Below, piece after piece: positions 1,078 to 63,924 of a stretch of 64,000 nucleotides of DNA; positions within the stretch are counted from its first letter, which is position 1, and every line of letters begins with the position of its first letter. The DNA comes from Acidaminococcus sp. (GTDB lineage: Bacteria; Bacillota; Negativicutes; Acidaminococcales; Acidaminococcaceae): contig JAKVOM010000001.1 in the NCBI GenBank assembly GCA_022482815.1, positions 372,001 through 436,000 on the forward strand, in the 5' to 3' direction. The notes under the pieces were generated by a model. It ran no database searches, had not been told where the DNA came from, and saw only the letters and a program-made list of their open reading frames with translations. The position numbers were made by a program, and so were the translations under genes.

Positions 1078-1078
1078 T

Positions 1079-2955: not shown

Positions 2956-3238
2956 GATCCCTCCTTTACTTATCCAAGTTTTCGTTTTTGTGAAGGAAGA
3001 TGGCAGAAGAAGGGGATGTGAAAAACGTTTATTTTTTCACATTCCCTTCTCTGCAAACCGTCACCTTTTCCTGCTATAACGGTTTTACATCAATCCCTTG
3101 ATTTTTGCAGGCAGAGCTGCTTATTGGTATCTATCCCGACATAGAAGCAAGTGACCTGCTGCACAAGAGGTATGAACAGCTCCGGGCGGATTCGCTTAAT
3201 TCCAAGCTTTCGCAGTTTATATCCCGCCCTTTGCTGCC
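2956..3238. other. Spacer with hairpin; no convincing gene
   Basis: A 17-bp-arm hairpin at 3009-3049 (GGGGATGTG / CACATTCCC) belongs to the long-hairpin family seen throughout the window and probably ends the DAACS transcript. 3060-3235 has a short open minus frame without a recognisable family or start, so I do not call a gene there. Confidence 0.5.
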
Positions 3239-4459
3239 TCAGGAATTAAATACTTTTTCATCCAGCATATTCATAGATTTTGCAACGATAATCGTCCCGG
3301 CAAGGTCACCGCTGACGTTTGCCGTAGTATGCGGAATATCAATGATCGGCCAGATAGCAGCGAGAATAGGCACGAGTGTCAGCGGGAAGCCCAGCGTCTG
3401 AAGCAATACGGAGGACATCACAATACCGGCTCCTTTGACACCGGCAGCACCGATAGAAAGCACCAGGCCCAGGAACACAAACTGAACGCAGGAACCGAGC
3501 GTCACCGGCACATTAAACAGATTGGAAGCAAAAATGGAGATACAGCCGATACCCACTGCCATGCCGTTCATATTGCAGGTGTTGCCGAGCGGAAGGCAGA
3601 AGCCGTAGATTTTTTCCGGAACGCCAAGTTTATCATTGGCAATCTTAAGTTCCAGCGGAAGCGTAGCCGCAGAAGACGTGGTACTGGCTGCCACGACCAT
3701 ACAAGGCATGATGTTCTTCAGATATTTCATCATGCTCTGTTTTGCCAGGAAACGAACCATCAAAGGCTGCACAATGAAGATAATGACGAGGCAGGCAGCC
3801 CAGTCCGTGGCAATGAAGTTCAGGACCTGCGTCATCATTTCACCGCTGAGGCTCTTTACCATATCCGCAACCAGTGCCATGATGCCGATAGGAGAATACT
3901 TCATGACGTAGTCCGTCATCTTCAGCATGACACCGGCGGCCTTATCGATCATTTCGACTAAACCTTTGTACGGGTCCCCCAGGGCGAGCAGTACGATACC
4001 GGTGAAAATAGCGAAAATAATGATCTGCAGCGTATTGCCCTTTGCCAGAGATTCAAAGATATTCGTAGGAATCCATTGAATGGCATTGTCGACAAAGCTG
4101 TAAGAAACAGCCTTGGCCGCTTTACCGCTCGTCAGCAAATCAGTGACGCCCTGACCCGGCTGAGTAATCATGGCAAAGCCCATACCCAGCGCTGCGGCAA
4201 AAGCAGACGTCACAATATAAAAAGCTACAATCCGCACACCCACACGGCGGAGCTGTTTAATATCTCCCATTTTGCACACGCCGCTTATCAGCGTAAAGAG
4301 AACCAGCGGTGCAATCAGCATCTTTAAGAGCCGAAGGAAAATATCCCCGAAGGGTTTGATATAAGGTACGGCTGCCGGCAGGAATTTTCCGATCAGGCCG
4401 CCTACAATAATTGCAATGACAATTTGTTTCCAAAGGGCCATCTTAAAGAATTTACCCAT
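3239..4459 (-). CDS. DAACS-family Na+ (or H+)/dicarboxylate-amino acid symporter, copy 1
   Basis: The protein of about 406 residues belongs to the dicarboxylate/amino acid:cation symporter family (GltP/GltT/DctA/SstT relatives), which takes up glutamate, aspartate, serine/threonine or C4-dicarboxylates with cations. It shows the family's eight-helix pattern, the serine-rich re-entrant loop around AASTTSSAATLPLE, the NMNG motif in helix 7 and the second hairpin near the C-terminus. An upstream in-frame TTG lies inside the GAGGAGAG ribosome binding site, so the ATG at 4459 (MGKFFKM) is the start; this also matches the paralogue at 6816-8036. The two copies are about 90 percent identical by eye. 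The substrate cannot be read from sequence; neighbouring deaminase genes suggest an amino acid. Confidence 0.92.
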   Translation of the reverse strand: MGKFFKMALWKQIVIAIIVGGLIGKFLPAAVPYIKPFGDIFLRLLKMLIAPLVLFTLISGVCKMGDIKQLRRVGVRIVAFYIVTSAFAAALGMGFAMITQPGQGVTDLLTSGKAAKAVSYSFVDNAIQWIPTNIFESLAKGNTLQIIIFAIFTGIVLLALGDPYKGLVEMIDKAAGVMLKMTDYVMKYSPIGIMALVADMVKSLSGEMMTQVLNFIATDWAACLVIIFIVQPLMVRFLAKQSMMKYLKNIMPCMVVAASTTSSAATLPLELKIANDKLGVPEKIYGFCLPLGNTCNMNGMAVGIGCISIFASNLFNVPVTLGSCVQFVFLGLVLSIGAAGVKGAGIVMSSVLLQTLGFPLTLVPILAAIWPIIDIPHTTANVSGDLAGTIIVAKSMNMLDEKVFNS

Positions 4460-4490
4460 CAAAATCACTCTCCTCAAATATGGTTTGCCG

Positions 4491-4571
4491 TTAATTTATT
4501 TTGCTCAGCCGCGATGCTGCGGCGATTTTCAGGAACCGGTCAATATCTGCAAAACGATGACAATACAGCGG
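4491..4571 (-). pseudogene. 3' remnant of a class V aminotransferase gene
   Basis: Read on the minus strand, this stretch gives PLYCHRFADIDRFLKIAA followed by a shifted tail. It aligns base by base with the C-terminal codons of the intact aminotransferase at 8078-9358 (PLHCHSFADIDQFLKITA). It sits in the same place relative to its symporter as the intact gene does to symporter copy 2. The rest of the gene is absent, so this is a deletion scar in one arm of a tandem duplication. Confidence 0.8.
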
Positions 4572-5268
4572 CAAGTTCCGTTACTAACGCGTCCTTTTGC
4601 ATCAAAAAAATAAGCTGCTCACTTTCATGAAGACTTTTTACTCAGCAGCCTTAAAGCACGTAAATTCTACAGAATTTTCAAAAAATAACTATCATTTTTT
4701 CTGAAGGCCTTTATCTGCTTCGCGAATTCAACTTTCTTCGAATACGCTGTCCCATGAGATCCAATATGGCATTTTTATACAATAAACAATAAAATTCTGC
4801 CTGAACTTTTAGTAACAGAAAAAATGAACTTTGATTATGATTGCAGGGCCCATCAAGCTATAATCACATTTTTCTGATTTTTATTCGTCTTTTCCTTTAC
4901 ATCATAAATAATATCATTTCAAGAATGGCCGTTCTAATACCATTTCCAGTAACTTAATATACGGAATCACCTATAGTTACCCATCATTTTTCGCGATAGA
5001 TGCTTTCGCATTCATGATTTCAGAAATACGGTTAAAATAAGTCAGTTTGCTGCCTTTATAATTTTTATCGGTTTCAATTCGAATACTTTTATAGTTCTAC
5101 TTCCGAGAAAAAAAGAGCTGCCGCACACTAATGCAGCAGCTCTTCGAACCGATTTGCAGTATAGACAATTCTCGTACCACGATGACTCCCCGGAACCGAA
5201 TTATGGTTCTAAGGGAAATAAATTTTGTATGATTTTTTACCCAGATAAGATAAGACCCGTATGTTCCT
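4572..5268. other. AT-rich upstream region, diverged duplicate of 9407-9830
   Basis: No gene is seen. 4870-5145 aligns with 9490-9824: both share an ATATCATTT box, a TTCTAATACC stretch, CCTATAGTTA and a terminal GAGCTGC hairpin. It probably supplies promoter and regulatory sites for symporter copy 1. The AAATGATATCATTT palindrome that is perfect in the other copy is degenerate here. Confidence 0.6.
5107..5144 (-). terminator. Rho-independent terminator after the threonine dehydratase gene
   Basis: An AGAGCTGC / GCAGCTCT hairpin on the minus strand is followed by seven T residues. The same hairpin occurs at 9785-9824, supporting duplication of the whole block. Confidence 0.8.
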
Positions 5269-6225
5269 TTACATTTTTCCTTCGCAGATTCGATCAATCA
5301 GGGAAAAATCAACGTTGCCTCCGGAGAGGAAGAAGACGACTTTGTCCTCTTTCTTGAAACGAAGTTTCCCCTGTAGCACAGCTCCCAGCGTCATGCAGGA
5401 GCTCGGTTCGGCTACAATCTTTCCCTTGAGTACCAATGTTTTTACAGCTTCGGCGATATATTTTTCCTCTACCGGAATCACCTGGTCCACTTTTTCCTGA
5501 ACAATAGGGAATGTCTTATCTCCCGGTTTAGCACTTGTGGTTCCGTCAGCAATCGTATTTCCTGATTTAATTTCCGTAGGTTTCCCGGCAGCAAGACTGA
5601 CCGTGTACCGGCTGCACTGCGCCGGCTCGCATCCATAAACCTTGATTTCCGGTTTTACGCTCTTCACAGCAAAAGCGACGCCGCTGATCAGCCCGCCTCC
5701 GCCAATCGGAACGACGACAGCATCGGCTTCCGGCAGCTGCTTCATGATTTCCAGTCCGGCCGTACCCTGCCCGGCCATGACATCATAATCATCAAAAGGA
5801 TGGATGAAGCAGGCTTTCTTTTCCTCCGCAATTTGTCTGGCGATGATAAAGCGCTGCGATTTTTCGCACAGCACCATCTTGGCGCCCAATGCTTGTACTG
5901 CTTCCTTCTTCACGTCCGGAGCCCCTTCCGGCATGACAACCGTTACGGGAACGCCGAGTAATTTCCCGGCGAAAGCAACGCCGCGGCCATGATTTCCGCT
6001 GGAAGCCGTGACAATCCCATTTTTCAGCGTTCCCGGAGACAACTGCAGTGCCTTATTGAGAGCGCCGCGAATTTTAAACGCGTTGATTCGCTGCATATTT
6101 TCTGCTTTCACATATACCTGGCACCCAGCTATCTCATCGAGATTCTGCAGTCTGATGAGCGGGGTTTCGTACACATACGGACGAATCCTTTCCTGTGCTT
6201 CCTTGATTGCTTCCAGTGACAGCAT
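5269..6225 (-). CDS. Threonine/serine dehydratase, PLP-dependent (TdcB/IlvA catalytic type, no ACT domain)
   Basis: The 318-residue fold-type II PLP enzyme deaminates threonine to 2-oxobutyrate, or serine to pyruvate, plus ammonia. The Schiff-base lysine is K51 in NAFKIRG, the cofactor asparagine lies in SSGNHG (about 76-80) and the phosphate-binding loop is GGGG (about 174-177). There is no C-terminal ACT or regulatory domain, as in catabolic TdcB-like enzymes. The ATG at 6225 is chosen because GGAGGTGTG lies 6-8 nt upstream; a longer frame from 6264 has no such site. RidA is encoded just upstream on the same strand, which fits because RidA hydrolyses the enamine/imine released by this enzyme. 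Confidence 0.92.
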   Translation of the reverse strand: MLSLEAIKEAQERIRPYVYETPLIRLQNLDEIAGCQVYVKAENMQRINAFKIRGALNKALQLSPGTLKNGIVTASSGNHGRGVAFAGKLLGVPVTVVMPEGAPDVKKEAVQALGAKMVLCEKSQRFIIARQIAEEKKACFIHPFDDYDVMAGQGTAGLEIMKQLPEADAVVVPIGGGGLISGVAFAVKSVKPEIKVYGCEPAQCSRYTVSLAAGKPTEIKSGNTIADGTTSAKPGDKTFPIVQEKVDQVIPVEEKYIAEAVKTLVLKGKIVAEPSSCMTLGAVLQGKLRFKKEDKVVFFLSGGNVDFSLIDRICEGKM

Positions 6226-6347
6226 ACAAACACACCTCCATTTTTCAGGAACCTGAATATACAAGAGAGGGAAAGAGCCTTTTGGTACTCTTTCCCTTCC
6301 CCATTCAAAGCCAAATCTCCATTTTTCTCAGTATGATATTTTCCCTA

Positions 6348-46487: not shown

Positions 46488-47072
46488 CTATACAATCTTG
46501 CGAACGATAACGGGCTGCGCATTGACTACTTCGTAATCTTTGACCAGGTGATAAAACGTACCTTTTTTCAATTTCGTTTTCTTCATAAATTCCACAGCCG
46601 AAATTTTCTTATCTTTCCACTGCCAGTACAATTCATCCCAGCCTTCCGGATAAGGAATCTTTTTACGCCCGCGGCCCGGTACTTTCAGCCGGATATCACT
46701 AAGGTTTGAAGCTCGTTCCTTGGCATAGCACTCAAGCAACACCCGAACCACAGCATGATTCACTTCAGTGAAAGAAAATACGAAAGTAGATGGGTAGTCA
46801 AGTACGCCCACCATGATGCCTCTTTCCAGAAAGCCATTGATTTCCTTCGTGACCGTACGACAATCGTCGCTGATATCCGTCAGCGAGAGGAAAACCAAGA
46901 TTCCCTTATTGGCTTCTGTATCTTTTTTTAGTTTCTGATAGTTGATTAAATCGCGCTCCGAATCCATATAGATATAGCATTTTCCTTCTTTTTCATGCGG
47001 CAGCAAAGAAATTGCCTGCGTTACGAGGTCATCGGACTCTGCTATTTTCTTGTAAATCCAAATTTTATTCAT
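46488..47072 (-). CDS. Resolvase-fold protein lacking serine recombinase catalytic residues
   Basis: The 194-residue protein has the size and layout of a small resolvase: an N-terminal Rossmann-like domain (1-120) and a C-terminal helix-turn-helix after GRGRKKIPYPEGWDELYWQW (TAVEFMKK-type recognition helix, here SAVEFMKKTKLKKGTFYHLV). The YARVS motif of active enzymes reads YKKIA, so the nucleophilic serine and its partner arginine are gone. The DRLGRS segment reads TDISDD. It is probably a DNA-binding partner or regulator and not a recombinase. It overlaps the upstream PLD-ATPase gene by 8 bp. Confidence 0.78.
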   Translation of the reverse strand: MNKIWIYKKIAESDDLVTQAISLLPHEKEGKCYIYMDSERDLINYQKLKKDTEANKGILVFLSLTDISDDCRTVTKEINGFLERGIMVGVLDYPSTFVFSFTEVNHAVVRVLLECYAKERASNLSDIRLKVPGRGRKKIPYPEGWDELYWQWKDKKISAVEFMKKTKLKKGTFYHLVKDYEVVNAQPVIVRKIV

Positions 47073-49113
47073 TCGTAATAGCCTTTCTTATACGAGAAAG
47101 CAATCCAGGTCGTTCAAACCGGATTTCCGTATAAAGTTCTGTTTTCTCCAAATTCAAGCGAATCTTGTTACCGATAACCGCGCGTTCCATTCCAGCGGGC
47201 AATTCACGAAACCGTTTAATCAATTTCTCTCTGTCTTGGGGCGTAGTTAAATCAATAATCAATTCATTTTTATTTTCATTGACAGTAAAGATTTCAGGCG
47301 AAATATAATAAAGGTCTTTTAATAACTTAATGGCTTGTTCTGAAACAATACTATCTCCCATATAGTCATTCCAGGTAAAAATACGGAATTCTTCGGGTAT
47401 TTCGATACCACATTCTGTCATTAAATCGCTAATGATCGTAGATGAAATCTTGTAGATATCCGGCTTAAACACTTCATCAGGATCCGGGTTCTTAAATTTG
47501 CGGATGATTTCCTGCACGGCTGGAAGCATTTTGGCCCAATATGCTCGGCAAAAAGCATTGGTCATCTTTTTACGGAGGGCAACGATTTCTCCCTCCAGCG
47601 CCGAAGCCATAGTCTTGGACAGTTGGTTATTGACGTGAATGACGATAAGCCGTTTGGAAACCTCCGGCCTGATACTTTCAATATTGTTGGCACTAAATAG
47701 GAAAGTAGGATGATTCAAATATCCCTGGGTAATCAGCCATCTGTCACCTTTCGTAATATCAGAAGCGTACCGCCAGCGGGAATTATTGATATCATCAATA
47801 AGAATCGGGCAGCCTTTCACCTGAGTGCACAGCGCAGGCATGGCCGTATCTTTAGTCGAGAAGAATTTAGCATCCAGCGCTGTCGGAAGGATACCGAGAA
47901 CCAGTTTCTGAACCGTCTTTAACAGCTGCGTCTTTCCGTTGTCACTGGGGCCGTATAGCAACAGATAAATAGGGAAGAACCGCGTAGAAACTTCAGCCAG
48001 GCTGCCATAGTACCGGAGTGCGGCAAAAAACGGAGAGACAAAAGCATGCACAAGGATGCGCCAGGCTTTTTCTTTTACGCTTTTGGGATCCCCCGTGAAC
48101 TTGTCAAATCCATCAATGTACTGCAGCCAGCAATGAATATCCGACCTCACTTCATCAAGTGAAGGTGCCAAATCCTGTACGGTATCATTGATAATGATTT
48201 TATCATGTTCATAATCGATTTCAAGTTGCGGACAGGTTCTTTGCTTCGCTTTTCTTTCGATACATTGCTTTCGAGAAAACTGAATCATATTCGTTACCTT
48301 TTCAAGAGTAAATAAAGTACCATCCGCTTTTATTGAAGGCCGTAGGCTGGCTGCTTTTAAAAGCTCACTCATTGTCTTACTTATTGTACCCACCGTAAAA
48401 GCATATTTTGTTTCTTCTGTCGGTACGTCGTGAATGACAATCGCTTCTTTGACTTGCTGCAACTTTTTAATCATGGGAATATCTTCTATATTGGAGCCAT
48501 CTTCTTTGATTTTTTTCGCTTTATAGGAAATTTCGTCAGTAGAAAGATCCTTCACACTTTCAAAAGCATCACACTGCAGCCTGTAGTATTCCGGATCATC
48601 ACAGACGCTGTAATTTTCAATCTGTGAACCGTCCCAGGCTCGCGTGGAAGCATTGGCCGAAGCAAAAATGACCCGGGTTTTGCCGTCATTTGCTTTAAGA
48701 AGATAGAGCTTCGCATGGGCAATGATGTCTCTGGCTACATACATATGAAACGTATGTTCCGCCATTCGCGCCTGTAGATAAGATTCCTGGCATACGAAAT
48801 TGGTCACAACCGTCTGCGTTGCCAATAATTCAGCAGAATCGGCACGAATAGATACTGGATTTACGATGACTTCCCCTGTATCAAAAAGCCGCATTAACTG
48901 TGAAATATAAGGCAAGCCAAACGAATAGGTAATGATCTTGATATCATTAAATCCACTGAAGGCCTCCTGCCAGGTCATCTTTTCAGAACTCAGAAAGTGC
49001 ATAAACTCAAATCCGAGCAGGCCATTTGCCCGTGGATTGTCGTCATCCTTTTCCCAATTCTTCACGTCATTAGTAAACAAGCTCAATTCCGGATTTTTCT
49101 TTTCTTCCATCAT
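47065..49113 (-). CDS. PLD-type nuclease/P-loop ATPase fusion protein
   Basis: The protein of about 682 residues has an N-terminal phospholipase-D-superfamily domain (about 30-190) with one HxK motif in IIAHAKLYLL (H137, K139 counted from the 49125 frame) and a downstream FASANAS. A linker follows, then a P-loop NTPase (about 340-510) with Walker A YGPSDNGKT, Walker B CPILIDDIN, a FLFSANN sensor and RPEVSKR arginines. The compact P-loop with a preceding helical region resembles SF3/AAA-type helicases. The single HxK half suggests a dimeric nuclease. The start at 49113 has GGAGGTG upstream. I know of no named family with this architecture. Confidence 0.75.
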   Translation of the reverse strand: MMEEKKNPELSLFTNDVKNWEKDDDNPRANGLLGFEFMHFLSSEKMTWQEAFSGFNDIKIITYSFGLPYISQLMRLFDTGEVIVNPVSIRADSAELLATQTVVTNFVCQESYLQARMAEHTFHMYVARDIIAHAKLYLLKANDGKTRVIFASANASTRAWDGSQIENYSVCDDPEYYRLQCDAFESVKDLSTDEISYKAKKIKEDGSNIEDIPMIKKLQQVKEAIVIHDVPTEETKYAFTVGTISKTMSELLKAASLRPSIKADGTLFTLEKVTNMIQFSRKQCIERKAKQRTCPQLEIDYEHDKIIINDTVQDLAPSLDEVRSDIHCWLQYIDGFDKFTGDPKSVKEKAWRILVHAFVSPFFAALRYYGSLAEVSTRFFPIYLLLYGPSDNGKTQLLKTVQKLVLGILPTALDAKFFSTKDTAMPALCTQVKGCPILIDDINNSRWRYASDITKGDRWLITQGYLNHPTFLFSANNIESIRPEVSKRLIVIHVNNQLSKTMASALEGEIVALRKKMTNAFCRAYWAKMLPAVQEIIRKFKNPDPDEVFKPDIYKISSTIISDLMTECGIEIPEEFRIFTWNDYMGDSIVSEQAIKLLKDLYYISPEIFTVNENKNELIIDLTTPQDREKLIKRFRELPAGMERAVIGNKIRLNLEKTELYTEIRFERPGLLSRIRKAITNE

Positions 49114-49163
49114 AAACACCTCCATGTATGTCCAAAAAATATGATTTATAAATGGATACTTTT

Positions 49164-50194: not shown

Positions 50195-50250
50195 TAAAAA
50201 ACGGAGTATACGCTTCCACTACGAAACGTATACTCCGTTTTATTTTTTTA
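50195..50250 (+). terminator. Terminator of the Rpn-type gene
   Basis: AAAACGGAGTATACG and CGTATACTCCGTTTT form a 15-bp stem followed by a T run; it also faces the convergent flavoprotein gene. Confidence 0.85.
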
Positions 50251-50257
50251 GTCCCTA

Positions 50258-51346
50258 TCAGCCCAAAATTCTCCCTGCCATTTCTTTCGCTCTTTCTTCA
50301 ATCCCTTCGCACTGCAGGATGCTGCCGGGGTCGTTGGCAGTTTCCATGAGGGCAAAGTGAGGCGGCAGGATGAAGTGTTTGTTGCAGTTCATGGCGTCGA
50401 TGACTTGCTCTGCCACGATGTCGCCGCCGCTGTAGCCGGAGACGACGAGGGCAAAGACGCGCTTTTTAGCGAATTCCTTGAAGTCCGACCGGAAGAGCGC
50501 GGTCATGCGGTTAAAGAAAGCCATGATGTTGGCGCTGACGGAATCGTTATAGTTAGGGCAGCAGAAGATCAGGGTGTCGCTTTCGCGGATAGCGGGATAG
50601 CCTTCTTCCACCATGACGCCGCCGTAAAAGCAGTCACCTTTTTCACCGAAGTGGAGGCAGGCTTCATAGCTGCAGCCCCGGCAGTCCACGACGGAACCGT
50701 TGCGCAGGCTGACTTCCCGGATGTCGGCCCTACCTTCCATATGCTTGCGAATCATGCTCCAGAGGAGCAGCGTATTGGACGTCTTGCGGCTGCTGGCATG
50801 GAAGAAAGCAAGCTTGTGCTTTCCGCCTTCCGGCGCCGGCGCGCCTTCAAAGCTGAGGAGCTGCTCCACCAGTTTCTTTACGGCGTTTTCGTAGGCGCGC
50901 AGGTTGACGATGCCCTGCAGCTTGGCCCGGATATTGAAGTTATACAGGGACCCGGTCGCTTCCACAAGCGGTGACCCGGGGAACCCGCAGCCCGACCGGT
51001 TGGCGATGAAGATCATCTCCCGGCCGGCTTTTTTGGTAAAGAGTTCTTCCGCGCCGTCGACAACGACACTGCCGATGCAGTTTTCCAGGCAGTGATGGTG
51101 CTGGGAAATATACGCGATGATACGGGCGAAATCGACGCTGATGCCGCCGCGTGCCAGATTCACAACAAAAAGTACGCGGCGCGGCTCACCCGCCTTCCTT
51201 TCCTCCTCATCCGGAAAGTGAAGTTCAAAATCTGCAAGGCTGGACACGGTGGCACAGTCAATACCAGCGAGTGCCTTGGCAAGGACGCCGTCGACGCGCC
51301 GGGTATCCCTGCCCTCTTCCCAGCCCATTTTAACGACATAAAGCAT
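50258..51346 (-). CDS. NAD(P)H-dependent oxidoreductase with FMN-reductase-like domain
   Basis: The protein of about 362 residues has an N-terminal region (1-165) of unclear family and a C-terminal NADPH-dependent FMN reductase fold (about 170-360): HKLAFFHASSRKTSNTLLLW for FMN, then DCRGCSYEACLHFGEKGDC with four cysteines and FCCPNYNDSVSANIMAFFNRM. The start at 51346 has a GAAAGAAGG site and lies 14 nt after the previous stop. It is third in an operon with the multidomain protein and the dehydrogenase-like gene. Confidence 0.8.
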   Translation of the reverse strand: MLYVVKMGWEEGRDTRRVDGVLAKALAGIDCATVSSLADFELHFPDEEERKAGEPRRVLFVVNLARGGISVDFARIIAYISQHHHCLENCIGSVVVDGAEELFTKKAGREMIFIANRSGCGFPGSPLVEATGSLYNFNIRAKLQGIVNLRAYENAVKKLVEQLLSFEGAPAPEGGKHKLAFFHASSRKTSNTLLLWSMIRKHMEGRADIREVSLRNGSVVDCRGCSYEACLHFGEKGDCFYGGVMVEEGYPAIRESDTLIFCCPNYNDSVSANIMAFFNRMTALFRSDFKEFAKKRVFALVVSGYSGGDIVAEQVIDAMNCNKHFILPPHFALMETANDPGSILQCEGIEERAKEMAGRILG

Positions 51347-51360
51347 GGTAAAGCCTTCTT

Positions 51361-52344
51361 TCACGCGTTGCACAAGTTCAGATAGGCGTTCTTAATCCGC
51401 GCGTAGAGTTCAGGACACAAGTCGGCGTCTTCATATTCAAAGCCTTCTTCGGTCAGGCGGTTCTTGACGCCCAGGAAAGCACCGCGCTTCCCGTCGCCCA
51501 GATAGAGGGAGCCGTAGTGCCATTCGCCCCGCAGGGTCAGAAGAATGGAAATGGCTGCACTCGAAAGGGCCGGTGCAATGTAGGGTTTATATCCAAGGTC
51601 ACGCACGGCAAGGTTGCAGGTTACGACTTTTTGGGTCAGTTCCCGCGACAGTTCATCGTTGTAATGGGTCAGGCTGTCGGCGATGACAAGGTCCTGGCCA
51701 TGCGGTCCGAAAGCCCGTCCTTCTGTCAGGTAGTGCGTCATGCGCGGATCTTTTTCGGCATAGTAGCACGCCCGGGCATTCATGACGCCGAGGCCGAAGC
51801 CCGATACCTGATAGGGTTTAAGACCGGAGCTTTCCAGAAAGGCACGGCACAGGTTGTCCACGGGGTCGGAAACAATGCAGGCAAGGCCTTTGAAGTCCGC
51901 TGCTTTGGCAAGGGCTCCGAAGTGCCGCACGAGCTCACTGTTGGCCGCCAGCTGGGCCATCCGCACGTCTCCTTTGACGCCGATGGGAGGGATGCCTTTC
52001 GACGCGCAGAAGATAAAGACGTCGCAGTCAAAAAGGTTTTTCTCCTCCACAATATCGACTTTCGGCAGTACCCGCTCGCCCGTAGCAAAAGGATAACGAA
52101 TCTGGTTCATTTCGATTTCAAGACGCTGCAGGTTCTTCGTATTGAGGTCGCAGATGCCGATAGAAGCAATCTTGTCAGACCCCAAGAGGCGCAGCCCGAT
52201 GAGCATCGTCCTGCCCACGTCCCCCAGGGCCAGGATATGGACGCGGTTCTTCTCCTTGAGCGCCGGCCGTCCCGTAAGCGGCAGGGTTTCCTTTACGCCT
52301 GCTTCCGCCGGCAGGTCACTGATATGATAAAGTCTCTTTTCCAT
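51361..52344 (-). CDS. Lactate/malate dehydrogenase-like NAD-binding protein
   Basis: The 327-residue protein has a Rossmann domain (RVHILALGDVGRTMLIGLRLLG, then CDLN), a VSDPVDNLCRAFL segment equivalent to the TNPVD region of lactate/malate dehydrogenases, and GRAFGPHGQDLVIADS, where the histidine is in the place of the catalytic GxHG motif. The canonical GxGxxG is reduced to GDVG. The substrate is unknown. It lies 23 nt downstream of the large multidomain gene. Confidence 0.72.
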   Translation of the reverse strand: MEKRLYHISDLPAEAGVKETLPLTGRPALKEKNRVHILALGDVGRTMLIGLRLLGSDKIASIGICDLNTKNLQRLEIEMNQIRYPFATGERVLPKVDIVEEKNLFDCDVFIFCASKGIPPIGVKGDVRMAQLAANSELVRHFGALAKAADFKGLACIVSDPVDNLCRAFLESSGLKPYQVSGFGLGVMNARACYYAEKDPRMTHYLTEGRAFGPHGQDLVIADSLTHYNDELSRELTQKVVTCNLAVRDLGYKPYIAPALSSAAISILLTLRGEWHYGSLYLGDGKRGAFLGVKNRLTEEGFEYEDADLCPELYARIKNAYLNLCNA

Positions 52345-52367
52345 GAGTCTATGCTCCTTTCAGCAGG

Positions 52368-55300
52368 TTATTCGCCGCCCCGGTTCCGCTCGCTTTCGCT
52401 TTGCAGATTGAGGCCAAGTTCTCCCCAGCGCAGGCGCACCAGCCGTTCGATATCATTTTCGATAAAGCGCGTGGGATCCATGTTGGTATCAAATTTTACC
52501 CCGATGTCGATATCGGGAATGCGCGGTACGGTAATCACTTCGCCCAACCGTTTCAGCGTCAGACGTTTTTCATAAAGCGCCTGGTATTCGGCCTGGAGCG
52601 TTTCCATGATGAGTTTCGCGTTCTGCAGGCAGGTCAGGGAATAGATAAAGGCCGCGTCCTCGTCGCCGTGCCGGATAAATTCCGGTTTTACGTAGGGCAG
52701 GATCAGGTTGACGGACGGGTTCCGGTCGTAGCCGCTGTAGTTATTGGCATTGTCGATACTGTCGCCGCCGATGAACGGGTAGCAGTCTCTTTCATTCAGC
52801 CACATTTCGAGCGATGGCAGGAAATACGCGCATTCGCAGTGATATCCCTGCTGCGCCATGAGGTCCATGGCAAAACCGCTCATGACGCCGGCCAGTACCG
52901 CCTTGACCTCGACGTCGTTCTTTTTGAGGTACGGCGTCAGCATGCGCATGCGGTGTCCTTTTTCCAAAAGGTCGTCAATAAGGATGACGGGCCGATGGAA
53001 GGATTTGATGGTCTTTACCTGGTTATCTACCTTGGCATAGTGGTGAGCTTCCGCCAAGATAAATCCTTTCACGGCGCGGTTGAAGTACTTCTCGATATGA
53101 AGGGCTTTCGTCACCGTGTTCGGTACCAGGACGTCGCTCAGGGCCTTGCCGAACGGCACGGACATATACGGTCCCCGCCGCTTCTGCGGGTCTTCCGCCG
53201 TGGATACGCCGTTCAGGCGCGCCACCTTCTGGATGATCCGATAGTGCATGGCACTGGTATTAAAGGACAGGATCAGCTTGCCCGGATAGATTCGGCGCAT
53301 GACGCCAAGCAGATTGTTGTGAGCTTTATCGAGGGCCCGCAGCACCCGTGGATTTTTGTTAAAAGGATTTTTGATGGTTGTTTCCACATCCCGGAAAAGT
53401 ACGACCGGTGACTTGATGTGCACCGCGTAGAGAGGATGAGGCGAGCCTTCCGGAGCAATATCCACAAAGCCCTGACGCGTCAGCGCTTCCACCGTCCGTT
53501 CATTGTAGCCGGACGGATCAATCGGGTGATACACGACGTACGTAAAGTCGCGGTTAATCAGCTCGGTCATCATCTCCGCGAGAAGAATCTGTCCCGGATA
53601 GGAAATGCTGCTGTCGTCGCTGACGTAAAAATAACCGATGGCGGCAATGCGTCCGGAAGCTTCTTCCCTCACGTGTTCCGCCACCCGGGCGTCGCGGAAT
53701 TCCACAAGAAGATTCTGCATAGGCACCTGGTGCACCGCGCCGAAAGCAATCACATGCTCGCCGCGGCCGCCCGTATTCACATACTGTGTGTAAACCCGCC
53801 GCGCGCCGTGACCGTCCCATTCCAGATAACGCTGGAGAAGCAAAGGATTCGCGCCGACACTGCTTATCATGGACTGCAAATGTGGCAGTTCTTCCCACGT
53901 GCGGGGTCGGAATTCTCCGATACCGATTTCCTGCGCTTCCAGCACATGCTTATAGGCCGGTTCACGCAGATACAGGTTATTGGCATAGATAAAGTTCTGG
54001 GCCACCGTGTCGATCAGGGCGGAAATGTCCCGGTTCTGGTCGATATTTTCACGGATACGTGTCGAACTGATATCTTCGTAGAATTTATCCAGTTTCAGAT
54101 GAATGACGTCGCCCTTGATCAGTTTTTCCGTTGCTTTTTCCCTTGCCTTGGCCGGCGTAGTATCAGAATACCAGTTGGCCTGCTCACGGGTTTCCCGTTC
54201 AAAGATGATGTGATTGACGGAATGAATCGTATGGGGGCCGGGATCCTGACGGTAGGCGGAAGCATTTTCCACAACGTCGGACCCGACGGCAATATAGAGG
54301 TCCTTATCCGCAAAAATCTCTTTCAGCTTTTTGATATCGTCCGGGTTCGCAATGTTCACCGACAGGTTTTCGGAAAACGGGTAAATATTTTCCGTATCTG
54401 CCACGGACATATTCATGATTTTCCGCCGCATCAGGCGGGGCTGTGTATGCTTGGACCAGGAAAATTCATCAAGTGCCAGGTAAACGACAAAGCCCATATC
54501 CCTGATTCGCTTGGCCACGGCCTTGTGACCGCTGCTGAACGGGTCGAAGGTGCCGGGATAGAAGCAGACTTTCTGCTCCGGCGGGAAAACAAAATGACCA
54601 TGGGCAAATTCAGACCAGCTGATAAAGCGGTAAATATGGTTCAGCACGGCCGCGTTGCTGTAAAAGTCCAGCATGTTTTCCGTATTTTCGTTGAGCAGTA
54701 CCCAGATTTTCTTATAACTGTGCAGGAAGAAGAAATCCTTCCGGATTTCCGGCATCACAGGACTATGGAAAATATACGTACCGATATCGCGGAACGCGTC
54801 GCGGCTCAGCTCCTTGTCATAGTGGGCATAGGCCCGCAGCATGGCGTAAAGGAGCCGCAGCTGCCGCTTTTCGTTCTGTCCGTCGTCCTGGGGCATCTGT
54901 GCGGAAAAATCCTGGAAGTTTTCCAGCATCACGCCCATTGTGTTGACGGCTGACGTGGCGAGCTGGAAGTTTGTGGATTCGATTTCGTCCTGAAGGGTAC
55001 TGATAAATTCATCAAGTTCTCCCGGACGCAGCTTCAGCGCCATCTTGCCGAGGTATTCCGGAACGTATTTGGCAATTTGCAGGTCCCCGATTTCGAGACC
55101 GTTAAAAAGTTCGACTGCCATTTCGTTGCGCTGGGAATAGGTCATGGAGTCGGCAATCGCCAGCAGCGCCTCACCCGCGGCCTGGCGCACGGCAAGATGT
55201 TCACTGACTTTCACGAGGTTGCAGAGGTGCATTCCGAGATGCATCCCGCTCTGCTGCTCTTTCTGCTGCAGCAGGGCATGGCACATGAGGTGGATATTGG

Positions 55301-57314
55301 CAATCTTGACCAGCCAGTGGGTACCGGTTTTGAGGTCTTCGAGAAAGAGGCTGCTTTCCCTTCCCTGGAACTGCTCCAGACCTTCCGGAAGGTTCATCGT
55401 CCTGAGCAGCTGCCGGATAAATTCCGTTTCGTCCAGCTCTTTTTTGAAGAGATGATGCATGCCGTAAAGGGCCGCAAGGCGCACAATCGTATTCTCCTCC
55501 TGTTGTGCTGCCTTGGCAAGGTATGCGCGCACGACCTGACAGAAACCCTCTGTCAGATCTTCCGGCCGCAGGGCAAGCAGTGCCTGCAGCAGCGTCATGC
55601 GTTCTTCCGGATCCGGCGACACAGCTTCATAGTACTTTTGCAGCACCTCAAGATAAGGCGCCGTCGGATTTTTGTCCTCGGCAATATTCGCGGCTGCTGT
55701 ACCAATCCGTTCGTAACGCGTTGCCAGGACGGACCGGACAAAAGGCCCCAGGCAGGAACCGATCCAGTTCTTATGCTGCTGCGTATAGCGCCGGCCCGGG
55801 TTGATGATCTGCGCGACGAACTGGCTGAAGAGCGTCTGATTCGTCACTTTTTTGCGCGGCAGATTGACGCCTTTCGGCAGTTCCTTGGTGTAACGCTCGT
55901 TGAACCTCGCCACAATGCGTCCCATCAGCTCGGCTGCCTGCACCCGGATGTCTTCTTCGCGATGGCTCAAAAGTTCAAAGAGGAACTGCAGCGTCATCAG
56001 TTTCTGCTGTTCCGTCATGTACGTGGAATATTCCTCAAAGATGGTGATATACGTACGCAGGTTTTTCCAGTTCTGTTCACTGCGGGCCGCTTCGATGAGG
56101 TTGCCGAAGTCGCTCTCACTGCGGAAGATAGCCATGAGCTCGATGTTGTGGGCAATGGCGGTAAATTTCAGCTGCCGCACGACTTCTTCGCCTTCCATGA
56201 GGACTTTTTCCTTCCGCTTCACGATGCGTTCTCTCGCGGGAGCCTGGGCAAAATTATCGGGAAGCTCAGTCGTGACACCGAGTTCCAGCATGTAGTCCTC
56301 AAAGTCCGCGAGTTTGGCATAAACCCTCTGGTAACGCTGCCGTTTGGCATCGTCCACATTGTCGAGTTTGCTCAGGATGACATCAAAAGCTTCCTTCAGT
56401 GTGTAAAAATGGATGACTTCCTGATGCTTTTCATTGCGGGAACTCTTCACGCGGAAATCTGCATAAATGAGCAGCAGGGATTCTACGGACAGGTTCTCAA
56501 GCTCCAGATCCCACACGGAGTGGTTGGCGGCAATATGGCCCATCTGGGGCAGTCCCTCGCGTTCACAAAAGATATCCGTATAGTAATAGTGAAGGTAAGG
56601 AACGCGCCGTTCCTCCCCTTTTTTAACGCCATATTTACCCATGTCATGGACAGCCGCCGCACCGGCAATGAGTGCCACATCGACAGGAACACCCCGTTTG
56701 TGCAGCTGGCGCGCCATAAATGTCGCTACGTAGGTCACGCCGCCGATATGCCCCAGGGCGTTAAAGGGCGTCACCTCTGCAGCAAGGCGCATGTATTCGT
56801 AGATATAGTCATCCCGGACAAGCGTCCGTAAACGCAGATATTCCCGGGTGAAATGCTCTTTTTTGATTTCCTTGGCAGGGAGCATCTCAAAGTTGTACCG
56901 CGGATCGAAGGGAAGGTGCATCTTTTCGTAATGGTACAGCCCCCGCAGGATCTGCAGAAAAACGCGGCGTCCCGCTTCGTACCGGACAGCCGTATCCGCA
57001 TTCTCCGGTTCCGTCGTTTCCGGGAAAATCTTCCGGAGTACATAGTTATAGCAGTCGACGAGCCACCCTTCCCGTGGCTCATCCGCGAGCACCGGCAGGT
57101 AATCCTGCAGAATCGGCAGCACGGCGCCCGCGGCAAACCGTCCGTTTGCGTCCGCAGCGGCTTTAAGACGGCGGCAAGCCGCCTTCAGGTGGTATTCCTG
57201 AAACTGTTCCTTTACCCCTTCCGGCGTCAGATTCATGGCTTTGCAAAACGCGGGAGCACTCAATGCGCCCAGCAGTGTCTCCCATAATGTACTTCTTTTT
57301 TTCGTATCTCTCAT
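52368..57314 (-). CDS. Giant multidomain protein: HD domain, helical repeats, NMNAT-like, GNAT-like and PRTase-like domains
   Basis: This protein of about 1648 residues has, in order (numbers from the 57329 frame, 5 higher than from the chosen start): a helical N-terminus (1-170); an HD phosphohydrolase domain (about 190-300, H194, H228-D229, D291); HEAT-like helical repeats (about 380-880); a nucleotidyltransferase with GTFDPFSSGH (about 926-935) and ISSTRIREN (1087-1095), the signature of nicotinamide/nicotinate mononucleotide adenylyltransferases; a GNAT-like region (about 1135-1300); and a phosphoribosyltransferase-type domain with RPVILIDDLLEKGHR (1446-1460). The ATG at 57314 has GAGGAG upstream. 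It looks like a one-chain NAD- or nucleotide-processing factory; the overall reaction is unknown. Confidence 0.8.
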   Translation of the reverse strand: MRDTKKRSTLWETLLGALSAPAFCKAMNLTPEGVKEQFQEYHLKAACRRLKAAADANGRFAAGAVLPILQDYLPVLADEPREGWLVDCYNYVLRKIFPETTEPENADTAVRYEAGRRVFLQILRGLYHYEKMHLPFDPRYNFEMLPAKEIKKEHFTREYLRLRTLVRDDYIYEYMRLAAEVTPFNALGHIGGVTYVATFMARQLHKRGVPVDVALIAGAAAVHDMGKYGVKKGEERRVPYLHYYYTDIFCEREGLPQMGHIAANHSVWDLELENLSVESLLLIYADFRVKSSRNEKHQEVIHFYTLKEAFDVILSKLDNVDDAKRQRYQRVYAKLADFEDYMLELGVTTELPDNFAQAPARERIVKRKEKVLMEGEEVVRQLKFTAIAHNIELMAIFRSESDFGNLIEAARSEQNWKNLRTYITIFEEYSTYMTEQQKLMTLQFLFELLSHREEDIRVQAAELMGRIVARFNERYTKELPKGVNLPRKKVTNQTLFSQFVAQIINPGRRYTQQHKNWIGSCLGPFVRSVLATRYERIGTAAANIAEDKNPTAPYLEVLQKYYEAVSPDPEERMTLLQALLALRPEDLTEGFCQVVRAYLAKAAQQEENTIVRLAALYGMHHLFKKELDETEFIRQLLRTMNLPEGLEQFQGRESSLFLEDLKTGTHWLVKIANIHLMCHALLQQKEQQSGMHLGMHLCNLVKVSEHLAVRQAAGEALLAIADSMTYSQRNEMAVELFNGLEIGDLQIAKYVPEYLGKMALKLRPGELDEFISTLQDEIESTNFQLATSAVNTMGVMLENFQDFSAQMPQDDGQNEKRQLRLLYAMLRAYAHYDKELSRDAFRDIGTYIFHSPVMPEIRKDFFFLHSYKKIWVLLNENTENMLDFYSNAAVLNHIYRFISWSEFAHGHFVFPPEQKVCFYPGTFDPFSSGHKAVAKRIRDMGFVVYLALDEFSWSKHTQPRLMRRKIMNMSVADTENIYPFSENLSVNIANPDDIKKLKEIFADKDLYIAVGSDVVENASAYRQDPGPHTIHSVNHIIFERETREQANWYSDTTPAKAREKATEKLIKGDVIHLKLDKFYEDISSTRIRENIDQNRDISALIDTVAQNFIYANNLYLREPAYKHVLEAQEIGIGEFRPRTWEELPHLQSMISSVGANPLLLQRYLEWDGHGARRVYTQYVNTGGRGEHVIAFGAVHQVPMQNLLVEFRDARVAEHVREEASGRIAAIGYFYVSDDSSISYPGQILLAEMMTELINRDFTYVVYHPIDPSGYNERTVEALTRQGFVDIAPEGSPHPLYAVHIKSPVVLFRDVETTIKNPFNKNPRVLRALDKAHNNLLGVMRRIYPGKLILSFNTSAMHYRIIQKVARLNGVSTAEDPQKRRGPYMSVPFGKALSDVLVPNTVTKALHIEKYFNRAVKGFILAEAHHYAKVDNQVKTIKSFHRPVILIDDLLEKGHRMRMLTPYLKKNDVEVKAVLAGVMSGFAMDLMAQQGYHCECAYFLPSLEMWLNERDCYPFIGGDSIDNANNYSGYDRNPSVNLILPYVKPEFIRHGDEDAAFIYSLTCLQNAKLIMETLQAEYQALYEKRLTLKRLGEVITVPRIPDIDIGVKFDTNMDPTRFIENDIERLVRLRWGELGLNLQSESERNRGGE

Positions 57315-57409: not shown

Positions 57410-57965
57410 GCAGTGGAAAGTGGATAGTGTGCAGGGGTTAGCGCACACGTGCGGGCAGCTGCCTTGGGGGATTCTTGAGAAAGATTACTGCGACAGTGAG
57501 TACAGCCTTCGGCAGAAAGGGACATCATCCGCCACAGAGACCTTCTTTCAAGCCGCTTGACGCGGCTTCGAAAGAAGGAGGGACCGCAGTCAGCGCTGAC
57601 AATAGGAAGCGCTGACGAGTGCGGGGGATGATAGCTTTTTTTCTCACCTTAAAGATTCTATCCTCCATCGCAAGCGATTCTCCTCCTTTCGACGCCGCAT
57701 TGCGGCGTGAAAGGTACTGCCGAAGCCAAACCTCCTGACGTCGGTTTGCCAAAAGAAAAAAGAAAAATAGAGGGTCATCAACCACCGCTGTTTCGGAAGG
57801 CCTGATGCCATCAGGCCTTCCTGCGGTCCTCCCCTCTTCAATGTCGCGGAGCGACGTCGAAGAGGGTCTCCATGAAGGTGCTTCTTTGGGACCTCCTTCC
57901 ATGTAGTCGGAAGGAGGGGCCGCGAAGCGGCGGAAGATAGCATTTTTCCCCCACCTTGCGTATTT
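57410..57965. repeat. Repeat mosaic between the multidomain operon and the ABC exporter
   Basis: No gene is seen. 57410-57500 is an AGTGGCTAGTGG-family copy. 57540-57630 is the CTTCTTTCAAGCCGC palindrome plus GTCAGCGCTGAC (second copy at 35380). 57724-57751 is a CAAACCTCC...GGTTTG motif. 57770-57872 is the paired covarying palindromes. 57893-57943 is the GGACCTCCTTCC palindrome (second copy at 19779). Confidence 0.65.
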
Positions 57966-57973
57966 TACACACA

Positions 57974-58022
57974 CAAAAGAGGCTGAGCCAGAATGCTCAC
58001 GCATTCTTTCTCAGCCTCTTTC
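57974..58022 (-). terminator. Long-hairpin terminator of the ABC exporter operon
   Basis: AAGAGGCTGAG(C)CAGAATG and CATTCTTTCTCAGCCTCTT pair around a short loop, 85 nt beyond the permease stop on the minus strand. Confidence 0.7.
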
Positions 58023-58106
58023 GCACCGCATCTGCGGCATTGGCACAGAAAAGTCATTGGAAGACTATAAAAAGGGAGTATGTAAATGATAGGTGAATTA
58101 GCAGTG

Positions 58107-60861: not shown

Positions 60862-63800
60862 CTATCCAATCAACTGTTGTAATTTCTCCGTATAGAGTTT
60901 TCGTACTGCTTCAAGCAACAAGCGCCAATATTTCAAACCTATATCCGGATGTGTCTTACGATATTCTTTTACATTGCTTGCTTTTTTCAGTGCATCTTGG
61001 TTGACCTGTTTATCTTGCGGATCTTTGTTTACATCATACGTCCCAATAAAGAAAGCTAACGTATCCGGATCTACACACCATTCTTTTGCGAATGCATCAA
61101 CTATGCCTTTTACTTTTGCCTGTACCCTGTCATTCATGATATCGGCAAAGTTTTGGTTCACGAATAGAGCTGGGTTATCTTGGTATTCTTTCCAAATTTC
61201 TTCCAAGATTTCTGCTCGAGCTGGATTGGTCTTGCGGAACCGTGCAATTTCTTCGTTAATCTCCTTAATAATCTTTTGAATTCTCGCACTTTGTCCAACG
61301 ACAAGGGCAGACGCGTCCGCACGTGCAGCTTCCATGAGCTTTAAAATATAGTCTTCATCGATCTGATCTTTGTGATAGCAAAGAAGGTCGTAGTTAATTG
61401 CGGTATTAATGTCGGGATCATTAGAATCATTACCTTTAAATTTTTCTTTTATGTTAACGAATTTCCCGCCATAAGCCTCAATCAGATCATTATTGATATG
61501 ATAATCCCTGACTAAATTCTTACTTTCAAATTCCGAGTAAACCTGCAAATCCGAATAGGCATTATCGAAATCTCTATATACCTTCAAAAATTCAATCTGT
61601 TGTTTCTTTGTCAGCGAATCGACTGCATCCGGTGTCGGTGCAACTTTCCGTAGTGCCTGAATTGCCTCACGAAACTTCTTTTCTGCTTCCCCCCAAGAAG
61701 GAGCCTGAACAAAGTTACCGCCTCCGGCAGAATAAAGAGTCATTGCGTGATCCACGGCTCGTTTGAAGTGTGCCGGTACTTGGAAAATAACAATCTGCCC
61801 AAATCTTTTCTGATTATCATACAGACGGTTTGTACGAGAGAACGCCTGAAGGATACTGTAAGAACGCATCGGCTTGCGGTCAACAAATAGCGTTGACAAA
61901 GACGGTGCATCAAATCCGGTTAGTAGTCGATCTACAACAATGACAATATCAAGCTGATTTTCCCGCACTTGATAATCGTCTTGCTTTCGAGCCAAACGGT
62001 CATTAACATTTACATTATAGGTATCAAGCTGTTCCATCGTATATGGTTTGCCAAACATCTCACTGTAATCCTGCAGTGCCTCTTTCATCTGATCCTGATT
62101 AAAAGAGCTATCATCATTATTTTCACTGACGGAGTACGTGATGGCAACCTTTGGAAAGTCGGATAACTTTCTTTTAATCTCATCACGAATGGTTACAGAG
62201 GGCTCTTTTCCCGCCTTTACCCGCTTAAACAGCTGATAATAGCGTTGTGCCTGTTTAATGGAACTCGTAGTAAGAATAGCCGTAAAAGTGTTCCCTTTGC
62301 CCCGATCCAAGCCCAGTTTCCCACTGGACTTATTGATGATAAAATCAACCACTTTCAGCATATGGTTTTCATCTTCATAGGCAGCATCGATGATTTTATT
62401 CTTCATCAGCACCGATTCCAAATCATACCCGTCTTCATCCTGCTCCCACGAAGTAATACCATTCTTTTTTGCCAGTTCTTCCATATCAAAGGTATTACGA
62501 TATTCCACCTGAAAACCAAGAACGGAGCCATCGTGCAGGGCTTCTTTGATGGTATACCGATTCAGGCATTTACCATACTGTTCTTCCGTAGTTTTGGGGA
62601 GATCCCCGGGACTATCTTTTGCATCTTCACTGAAAATCGGTGTTCCCGTGAATCCAAACCACAAAGGGTTTGCAAAATATTTATTAAGCAAATCCTGAGC
62701 AACCGGCGACACAGCACGATGGCATTCATCTACGATAAACACCAGACGAAGATTATGGAGCTTCTCATATTTCTTTGAACCCTCCGGATACCGTTTCATG
62801 ACAATCTGTAACTTTTGGATGGTTGTGACAATCACATCCCCATTCTTTGACTGCAGCTTTTTCACTAGATCACTGGTATTATCCGTTTTATTCACAGCGA
62901 TTCTATCGCACTCGGCATATGCCTTAAATGCACCCGTTGTCTGGTTATCCAGATCCCTGCGGTCAACCACAAAGATCACTTTGTCAACACTGGGAATTTG
63001 AGTCAGGTAATGAGCAGCTTTATAAGCTGTGAGTGTCTTTCCTGATCCGGTTGTATGCCATATGTAGCCGGAATGTCTACCACCATCGGAATACGGATTG
63101 ACTGCATCCTTTATGGCTTCAATGGCATGAATCTGATAGGGGCGAAGCATGATAAGCGCTTTACGCTCGTCATCTAGCACCGTATATTGAGAAACCATCT
63201 TGTGGGCAGCAGGAATCGAAAGTACCTCTTTTGCAAATGACAAATAATCATTAATCGGCTGATTGTTATCATCCAGCCAGACAGAAAGGAATTTTTCGTT
63301 AAGCCTTTTTTCAGAAGCGGCTGCAATGTACCGTGTATCTGCCCCATTGGAAACCACGAACATCTGAAGTGTGGAAAAGATATCAGTGAAAACCCCTTCC
63401 TTCAGATATTTTTTAATTTGATTGAAAGCTTCCTTATAGGGGTGACTGCGGTTTTTAAGTTCCACATGAATCATGGGAAGACCGTTGATAAACAGTGTCA
63501 CATCGCCGCGGCGATTACAGCTCATCTTATCTTTTCGTTCAAATTCGATTTGATGCACCACTTCATATACCGAAGATCCGCCGGCAATATCAACTCTTTT
63601 GAAAACAATGGGACGTATGGTTCCCAAGCTTGCATCTTCCCGCTGTATACGTACTCGTGCAATACCATTTTCTCCCATCAGCCATTTCGCTGCATCATAA
63701 AACGTAGTAAATCGCAGTTGGTTCTGTACCTGGAGAAATTCTTTATCCGTCAAGGGGTGCTCATCAAACTTTTCTTTGTTATTGCGGACAAGAATATGAC

Positions 63801-63924
63801 GGAAATTATCCCAAAGATCTTGAACGGTATGGATATCATCCCTAAATGTCCATTGGGACTCTTTTTCTGTGAGTTGCTCAATCAGATGTTTTCCAATACT
63901 TAGCTCAGATTCATATGTTGCCAT
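60862..63924 (-). CDS. hsdR: Type I restriction enzyme R subunit
   Basis: The 1020-residue subunit has an N-terminal PD-(D/E)XK nuclease (D141, then E155 and K157 in IHVELKNR), SF2 helicase motif I WHTTGSGKT (about 289-297), motif II DECHR (399-403), a TGTP motif and the later DRLLTGFDAPSLSTLFVD. It cuts foreign DNA after translocation as part of an R2M2S complex. The ATG is at 63924; the S subunit ends 18 nt upstream. The M subunit is presumably beyond the right edge. Confidence 0.95.
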   Translation of the reverse strand: MATYESELSIGKHLIEQLTEKESQWTFRDDIHTVQDLWDNFRHILVRNNKEKFDEHPLTDKEFLQVQNQLRFTTFYDAAKWLMGENGIARVRIQREDASLGTIRPIVFKRVDIAGGSSVYEVVHQIEFERKDKMSCNRRGDVTLFINGLPMIHVELKNRSHPYKEAFNQIKKYLKEGVFTDIFSTLQMFVVSNGADTRYIAAASEKRLNEKFLSVWLDDNNQPINDYLSFAKEVLSIPAAHKMVSQYTVLDDERKALIMLRPYQIHAIEAIKDAVNPYSDGGRHSGYIWHTTGSGKTLTAYKAAHYLTQIPSVDKVIFVVDRRDLDNQTTGAFKAYAECDRIAVNKTDNTSDLVKKLQSKNGDVIVTTIQKLQIVMKRYPEGSKKYEKLHNLRLVFIVDECHRAVSPVAQDLLNKYFANPLWFGFTGTPIFSEDAKDSPGDLPKTTEEQYGKCLNRYTIKEALHDGSVLGFQVEYRNTFDMEELAKKNGITSWEQDEDGYDLESVLMKNKIIDAAYEDENHMLKVVDFIINKSSGKLGLDRGKGNTFTAILTTSSIKQAQRYYQLFKRVKAGKEPSVTIRDEIKRKLSDFPKVAITYSVSENNDDSSFNQDQMKEALQDYSEMFGKPYTMEQLDTYNVNVNDRLARKQDDYQVRENQLDIVIVVDRLLTGFDAPSLSTLFVDRKPMRSYSILQAFSRTNRLYDNQKRFGQIVIFQVPAHFKRAVDHAMTLYSAGGGNFVQAPSWGEAEKKFREAIQALRKVAPTPDAVDSLTKKQQIEFLKVYRDFDNAYSDLQVYSEFESKNLVRDYHINNDLIEAYGGKFVNIKEKFKGNDSNDPDINTAINYDLLCYHKDQIDEDYILKLMEAARADASALVVGQSARIQKIIKEINEEIARFRKTNPARAEILEEIWKEYQDNPALFVNQNFADIMNDRVQAKVKGIVDAFAKEWCVDPDTLAFFIGTYDVNKDPQDKQVNQDALKKASNVKEYRKTHPDIGLKYWRLLLEAVRKLYTEKLQQLIG

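Follow-up and report, generated by a model that had tools for sequence, protein, structure and literature searches.

The nearest described combination to the system reported here is the NadD-YqeK fusion, which proofreads the synthesis of nicotinamide adenine dinucleotide (NAD) (PMC9426524). A protein of 1,648 amino acids that likewise carries a NadD-lineage nucleotidylyltransferase and an HD hydrolase on one chain, hereafter the giant, is encoded in Acidaminococcus sp. (assembly GCA_022482815.1) within the window, a stretch of 64,000 nucleotides covering positions 372,001 to 436,000 of contig JAKVOM010000001.1. Unlike NadD-YqeK (PRK07152), the giant has its HD domain at the N-terminus, about 470 residues of helical repeats between the two domains, and additional GNAT-fold and phosphoribosyltransferase (PRTase)-like domains; its base-recognition residues differ, its HD domain is nearer to the DVU_1551 type, it has two fixed partner genes, and a canonical NadD is also present in the genome. 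Rel/SpoT and GlnD are analogous in joining a transferase and an HD hydrolase on one regulated chain, with an unrelated transferase domain. The parts are known enzyme folds, and for the whole we found no counterpart: the giant, the gene 2 protein and the N-terminal half of the gene 3 protein are not covered as such by any of the scanned family models. The original prediction, made from the DNA letters, did not recognise the module as a described pathway, and we found no description of it in the open-access full-text literature.

All three genes are transcribed from the minus strand. The giant is encoded by gene 1 (52368..57314), an open reading frame beginning with the ATG at 57314. Gene 2 (51361..52344), identified from its reading frame and its matches to PF00056 and to lactate and malate dehydrogenase (LDH/MDH) chains of the PDB, specifies an LDH/MDH-like protein of 327 amino acids. 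Gene 3 (50258..51346) encodes a flavodoxin-fold protein of the FMN_red type (PF03358) with four cysteines spaced C-x2-C-x4-C-x8-C; it begins with the ATG at 51346 or, alternatively, with a GTG at 51373. The intergenic gaps are 23 bases between the giant and gene 2 and 14 bases between genes 2 and 3. The host genome is a single contig of 3.06 Mb with one copy of the giant. The coordinates, the length of about 1648 residues, the domain guesses and the cohesion of the three genes that had been put forward from the sequence are borne out by the reading frames, the motifs and the co-occurrence data, and the stretches GTFDPFSSGH, ISSTRIREN and VILIDDLLEKGHR are all present in the translation of the giant; the Pfam matches given below and their conservation in relatives show these resemblances not to be fortuitous.

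The three genes go together as a single unit, and their co-occurrence is nearly complete. All genome draws were made within the phylum Bacillota, and a contig scan used short patterns of the window giant, which retrieve close relatives. In a draw of 341 genomes from a related class, that of genome G197, with thresholds of E <=1e-30 for the giant and E <=1e-20 for gene 2, the giant was found in 28 genomes, gene 2 in 27 and gene 3 in 26, the carriers of genes 2 and 3 being subsets of the 28 giant carriers. The exceptions are G735, which has a partial giant and neither partner, and G797, which lacks gene 3 and in which gene 2 is cut at a contig end; both are drafts that are 82-84% complete. Among a further 16 giant-positive genomes from three classes, two of them repeated from the draw of 341, gene 2 is present in 14, the two without it being G555 (79% complete) and G735.

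The order 1-2-3 on one strand is kept at 46 of the 58 giant-bearing loci, which represent four classes (L071 and L079 being contigs from the same genome). Of the other 12, two carry an insert, four (L071, L108, L125 and L144) end within 500 bases downstream, three are split and three are extra copies. The split loci belong to three genomes of one genus (g310; L145, L147 and L148), in which the giant stands alone and genes 2 and 3 lie together on another contig. All 12 named loci from the contig scan, from Acidaminococcus, Megasphaera, Anaeroglobus, Colibacter, other Negativicutes and Eubacterium pyruvativorans, hold the three homologues in order, as does Acetoanaerobium noterae. The gene order that was to be looked for in Negativicutes is therefore conserved there and extends beyond the class. 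The insert, at L121 and L122, measures 5.4-5.6 kb and separates the giant from gene 2, with gene 3 following gene 2. At L121 it contains a glutamine amidotransferase class II gene, whose neighbours resemble genes for a glutamate synthase of the archaeal type and for an ammonium transporter; at both loci a riboflavin-transporter-like gene lies just upstream.

The giant has a NadD-lineage nucleotidylyltransferase domain at residues about 914-1120 (53955..54575, minus strand), recognised by PF01467, Foldseek and motifs. The CTP_transf_like model PF01467 matches the window giant with an E value of 4.1e-10 and also matches 13/13 relatives; the top Foldseek match is a NadD (8aih, E 2.0e-6), and the NadD-YqeK model PRK07152 matches the NadD part with an E value of 3.4e-9. 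The prediction of an NMNAT/NadD-like domain is thereby upheld. With the NadD model TIGR00482 the giant reaches about 37.6-41.6 bits, under the curated cut-off of 112.45, and a canonical NadD scoring 166.3 bits is encoded elsewhere in the host genome. With that gene present, the housekeeping role does not fall to the giant, and we have discarded that assignment.

Comparison of the active site with bacterial NadD and NMNAT proteins reveals both retained and altered residues. Along with the fold, the giants retain the SS[TS]x[IL]R motif (ISSTxIR) in 50/53 sequences, those at L131, L140 and L142 being without it, and the second His of HxGH (H930) in 53/53. The complete HxGH motif is present in 0/53, its first His being replaced by Ser or Thr, and [ST]x[GS]H is found in 51/53. 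The SYT motif and the Trp, the base-recognition residues of canonical NadD, are present in 11/11 canonical enzymes and replaced in all 19 giants aligned with them; among the giants, the SYT site is occupied by another motif with an invariant N987, and the Trp site by Tyr in 52/53. The loss of the first His, SYT and Trp makes nicotinic acid mononucleotide (NaMN) a doubtful substrate. The retained transfer motifs and the altered base pocket, as read from the alignment, would fit a functional nucleotidylyltransferase with a different acceptor.

The HD residues that had been noticed form a phosphohydrolase-like domain at residues about 181-290 (56445..56774, minus strand), identified by PF01966 and its ligand residues. 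The metal-ligand set H189, H223, D224, H265 and D286 is kept in 53/53 full-length relatives, and to judge from these five residues the HD site of the giant is intact. With PF01966 the window domain scores 21.5 bits against a gathering threshold of 22, and 35/39 relatives match at E <=0.1 (best 1.9e-6). The HD-containing DVU_1551 NTP transferase model is matched by 39/39 relatives; no YqeK-type HD model is among the NCBIfam matches of these 39 at E <=0.1, where DVU_1551 and TIGR00295 are the best. A HEAT-like helical-repeat region follows at residues about 400-868 (54711..56117, minus strand): PF02985 matches 10/13 relatives at E <=0.05 (best 1.1e-4), the window protein itself scoring 21.4, below the cut-off of 23.5.

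Downstream of the NadD-like domain, residues about 1130-1300 (53415..53927, minus strand) adopt a GNAT fold according to the structure model, Foldseek and VIA-align, in agreement with the predicted GNAT-like domain. VIA-align superimposes it on RimI (2cnm) with Z 13.7 over 135 aligned residues (root mean square deviation 2.7), its listing consisting of GNAT chains and hence being uninformative for the other domains; Foldseek matches it to 5k9n with an E value of 3.0e-5, and the domain lies within the well-predicted part of the model. Its mean conservation, 0.39, is the lowest of the C-terminal domains (NadD-like 0.64, PRTase-like 0.60). The acyl-coenzyme A motif [RQ]xxGx[GA] is not found at the expected loop, the pattern occurring somewhere in the domain in 7/53 giants at four or more different positions; for lack of the motif in that loop, an active acetyltransferase is unsupported.

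The PRTase-like domain occupies residues about 1305-1560 (52635..53402, minus strand). It shares with type I PRTases weak profile matches around a motif containing an acidic pair. With PF00156 the window domain scores 14.6 bits against a gathering threshold of 26.3 (21/45 relatives at E <=0.1, best 2.6e-4), and the NCBIfam adenine PRTase model matches 31/45 relatives (best 3e-4); the adenine and hypoxanthine PRTase matches are weak and consistent, each under its curated cut-off. The family consensus of the motif is VILVDDLLHKGYR, with the DD pair in 48/53 giants and the first Asp alone in 52/53. Unlike type I PRTases, the giants lack the phosphoribosyl pyrophosphate (PRPP) loop TGxT (0/53), have KGxR-type residues instead, and possess invariant motifs of their own, VPFG, NTVTK and YPFIGGD. 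A profile search of the domain against the PDB gave non-significant PRTase matches (best E 0.2). The mean predicted local distance difference test score (pLDDT) is 50.8 for residues 868-1648 and 43.2 for 1296-1648, the PRTase-like part being mostly below 50; the models were built on 12 fairly close sequences, which accounts for the low values. The phosphoribosyltransferase signature originally proposed thus stands as regards its acidic pair; an active PRPP transferase is unsupported, and since TGxT is absent, mononucleotide synthesis from PRPP is without sequence backing.

Gene 2 shares with L-lactate and malate dehydrogenases the NAD-binding half. PF00056 (Ldh_1_N) is matched with 27.5 bits, barely over the gathering threshold of 27 (E 3.7e-6), the best LDH/MDH chain in the PDB has an E value of 1.3e-11, and the L-lactate dehydrogenase model TIGR01771 gives 29.3 bits, short of its equivalog cut-off of 303.55. 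The reduced glycine motif noted beforehand is present, the first Gly of GxGxxG being Ala39 (AxGxxG). H215 and R191, kept in 47/47 homologues, align with the catalytic His and the substrate Arg of LDH, and D66, at the end of strand 2, is kept in 43/47. In contrast to these dehydrogenases, all 47 have Met (M188) at the position of the Asp that in LDH pairs with the His, and most relatives outside Negativicutes are longer at the N-terminus by about 80-120 residues.

The protein encoded by gene 3 had been described as FMN-reductase-like with cysteines, which agrees with its FMN_red match (68.6 bits against a gathering threshold of 24, E 5.7e-19; 12/12 relatives). C231, C234, C239 and C248 are kept in 42/42 sequences. 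Four cysteines at the cluster position are also a feature of Isf-type iron-sulfur flavoproteins; the spacing of the four in gene 3, exact in 40/42, differs from that of Isf, and its N-terminal half is covered by no scanned family model as such. The gene 3 profile had no match at E <=0.1 among PDB sequences.

Near full-length giants were found in 4/249 genomes phylum-wide, 18/250 of the window's class and 6/9 of its own genus, two of the nine Acidaminococcus genomes having no giant match at all. Further draws yielded the giant in 7/43 (two of the seven split), 8/46 and, as above, 28/341 genomes (some partial). The giants remain recognisable, with conserved motifs, down to about 33% identity; those closest to the window giant are from Acidaminococcus in both the tree and the contig scan, and the giant of Eubacterium pyruvativorans is placed among Negativicutes. 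This placement and the patchy spread are suggestive of horizontal transfer. Those carriers that are named ferment amino acids or organic acids, which is a lead rather than a test. The tree also contains very long branches (L031, 2.21; L150, 1.37; L141, 1.2), in one Acidaminococcus genome (G323) the sole match spans 48 residues at the N-terminal end of the giant and may be a relic, and in Anaeroglobus geminatus (L024, 7836-12693) the giant is broken into two frames.

Three extra copies (L131, L140 and L142) group in a single clade and are not adjoined by genes 2 and 3, their genomes each having a first copy of the giant with both partners. They keep the HD and PRTase-like motifs and are the only three of the 53 giants without ISSTxIR; [ST]x[GS]H is also absent from L140 and L142 and kept in L131. 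This coincidence of motif loss with absent partners connects genes 2 and 3 with nucleotidyl transfer. Each extra copy lies opposite a divergent APH-family gene, which also exceeds the fructosamine-kinase cut-off. As to other kinds of element, there was no match among 50,697 phage records; of 72,556 plasmid records one matched, from Acetoanaerobium noterae, and this replicon of 2.63 Mb is more likely chromosomal. Cargo of phages or plasmids was rejected on these counts. Anti-phage defence was also considered and set aside, no PADLOC model matching the three proteins at E <=0.01.

From these data we tentatively favour an undescribed three-protein pathway of anaerobic Bacillota in which an NAD-like or nucleotide-activated compound, handled by two oxidoreductases, is made, activated or recycled; it is the best of the explanations considered, and may well be wrong. 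The giant would act as a scaffold in which the NadD-lineage domain places a nucleoside monophosphate on a phosphorylated acceptor, probably not NaMN, and the HD phosphohydrolase acts on phosphate or nucleotide bonds, removing or proofreading them. Ligand binding or shaping of the complex would fall to the GNAT-like and PRTase-like domains; the latter may bind a nucleotide or a sugar-phosphate with no use of PRPP. Redox reactions on the product or its precursor, by which the product is made, used or recycled, would be the work of the LDH-like protein and of the flavoprotein of Fe-S type. The domain content, motif conservation, co-occurrence and operon order are observed; every chemical step, the identity of the acceptor and which way the pathway runs are inferred. 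A cofactor pathway with enzymes using its product, as first envisaged, keeps its three-gene unit and loses the backing for NaMN and for a PRPP step; a pyridine-nucleotide-like product is something we can but surmise. The narrower proposal, in which the three proteins make and use a dinucleotide-type cofactor (or a carrier activated by a nucleotide) that differs from NAD and has so far gone unrecognised in anaerobic Bacillota, with a dedicated dehydrogenase and a dedicated Fe-S flavoprotein for its redox chemistry, is doubtful.

Several points weigh against the favoured pathway. The giant has no known substrate or activity, its PRTase-like domain is of low confidence in two structure models besides lacking the PRPP loop, and since the base pocket of the NadD-like domain is changed, the product need not resemble NAD. 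With Met replacing the His-pairing Asp, gene 2 may not encode a hydroxy-acid dehydrogenase. Co-occurrence indicates shared function and not a pathway as such; the tested class itself contributed three sequences, from one genome (G197), to the profiles, and the thresholds were our own choice. The degenerate copies being one clade, the link between motif loss and partner loss may reflect a single event.

The main rival is damage control for pyridine nucleotides, with the NadD-like and HD domains acting as NadD-YqeK does and the LDH-like protein and flavoprotein repairing or disposing of damaged or misreduced nucleotides. A fusion of NadD with an HD hydrolase is known, its YqeK domain hydrolysing wrong analogues of nicotinic acid adenine dinucleotide (PMC9426524), and PRK07152 does match the NadD part of the giant. 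Given that a canonical NadD is already present, that the HD domain resembles DVU_1551 and no YqeK model is among its matches, and that a module carried by 28/341 genomes is patchier than a general repair need would predict, we consider this rival unlikely. The same NadD kinship in sequence and fold might point to an additional route of NAD synthesis or salvage, an isozyme adenylating nicotinamide mononucleotide or NaMN beside an ordinary dehydrogenase and flavin reductase; at 41.6 bits against 112.45, with HxGH lost in all 53 giants, SYT and Trp replaced in the 19 compared, and the canonical enzyme encoded elsewhere, it is very improbable.

The third-ranked explanation is a Rel-like nucleotide signal made by the NadD-like domain, destroyed by the HD domain and sensed by the HEAT, GNAT and PRTase-like parts, with genes 2 and 3 under its control. 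Sites for synthesis and hydrolysis do stand on one chain, the GNAT and PRTase-like domains without catalytic ligand motifs would suit sensing, and the three paralogues retain the HD and PRTase-like motifs as they drop the transfer motif. No such signal is known, however, and the near-constant pairing with the same two oxidoreductases would be left unexplained, so that we regard it as quite unlikely. That unrelated genes are grouped by chance around an inert relic has nothing in its favour apart from the low Pfam scores that some domains obtain; active-site residues conserved in 53 giants and the near-complete co-occurrence contradict it, and it is hardly to be credited.

Should the module make or handle a nucleotide compound, as the favoured pathway has it, it would represent a pathway of rumen, gut and digester anaerobes named by no scanned family model. 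A 1,600-residue protein nearly always accompanied by two oxidoreductases constitutes a closed and testable three-protein set. A NadD-lineage enzyme with an altered base pocket is rare evidence of a natural substrate shift in that family, and the extra copies that lack the transfer motif offer natural controls for telling the part played by the HD site from that of the NadD-like site.

The genes flanking the unit vary between loci. The commonest neighbour clusters listed come from at most nine loci, mostly of near relatives, and inferring function from neighbours was unhelpful for that reason. At one locus only (L148, genome G559, about 480-6301) the giant adjoins a Ter-type stress cluster with C-C_Bond_Lyase (PF15617) and YceG_bac (PF14266), presumably together with TerD and TelA. 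No riboswitch or T-box controlling the operon was found in the window; among 16 other loci checked there is one FMN riboswitch (L122), upstream of the riboflavin-transporter-like gene and the giant, and such control is not general. A terminator-like hairpin of 19 pairs with a T-rich tail lies 3′ of gene 3 (50198..50241, minus strand), terminator-like sites across the region numbering 9 against 9.6 in shuffled sequences, that is, without enrichment. Near the operon lie a frame resembling a type I restriction R subunit (60862-63924) and another, large one, part of which looks like a P-loop NTPase (47065-49125). Upstream of the giant lies a dispersed intergenic repeat (57480-58060), pieces of which, 46-155 bases long and 83-92% identical, recur in the window at about 14.2, 19.8, 26.1, 35.3-35.5, 39.8 and 44.0 kb.

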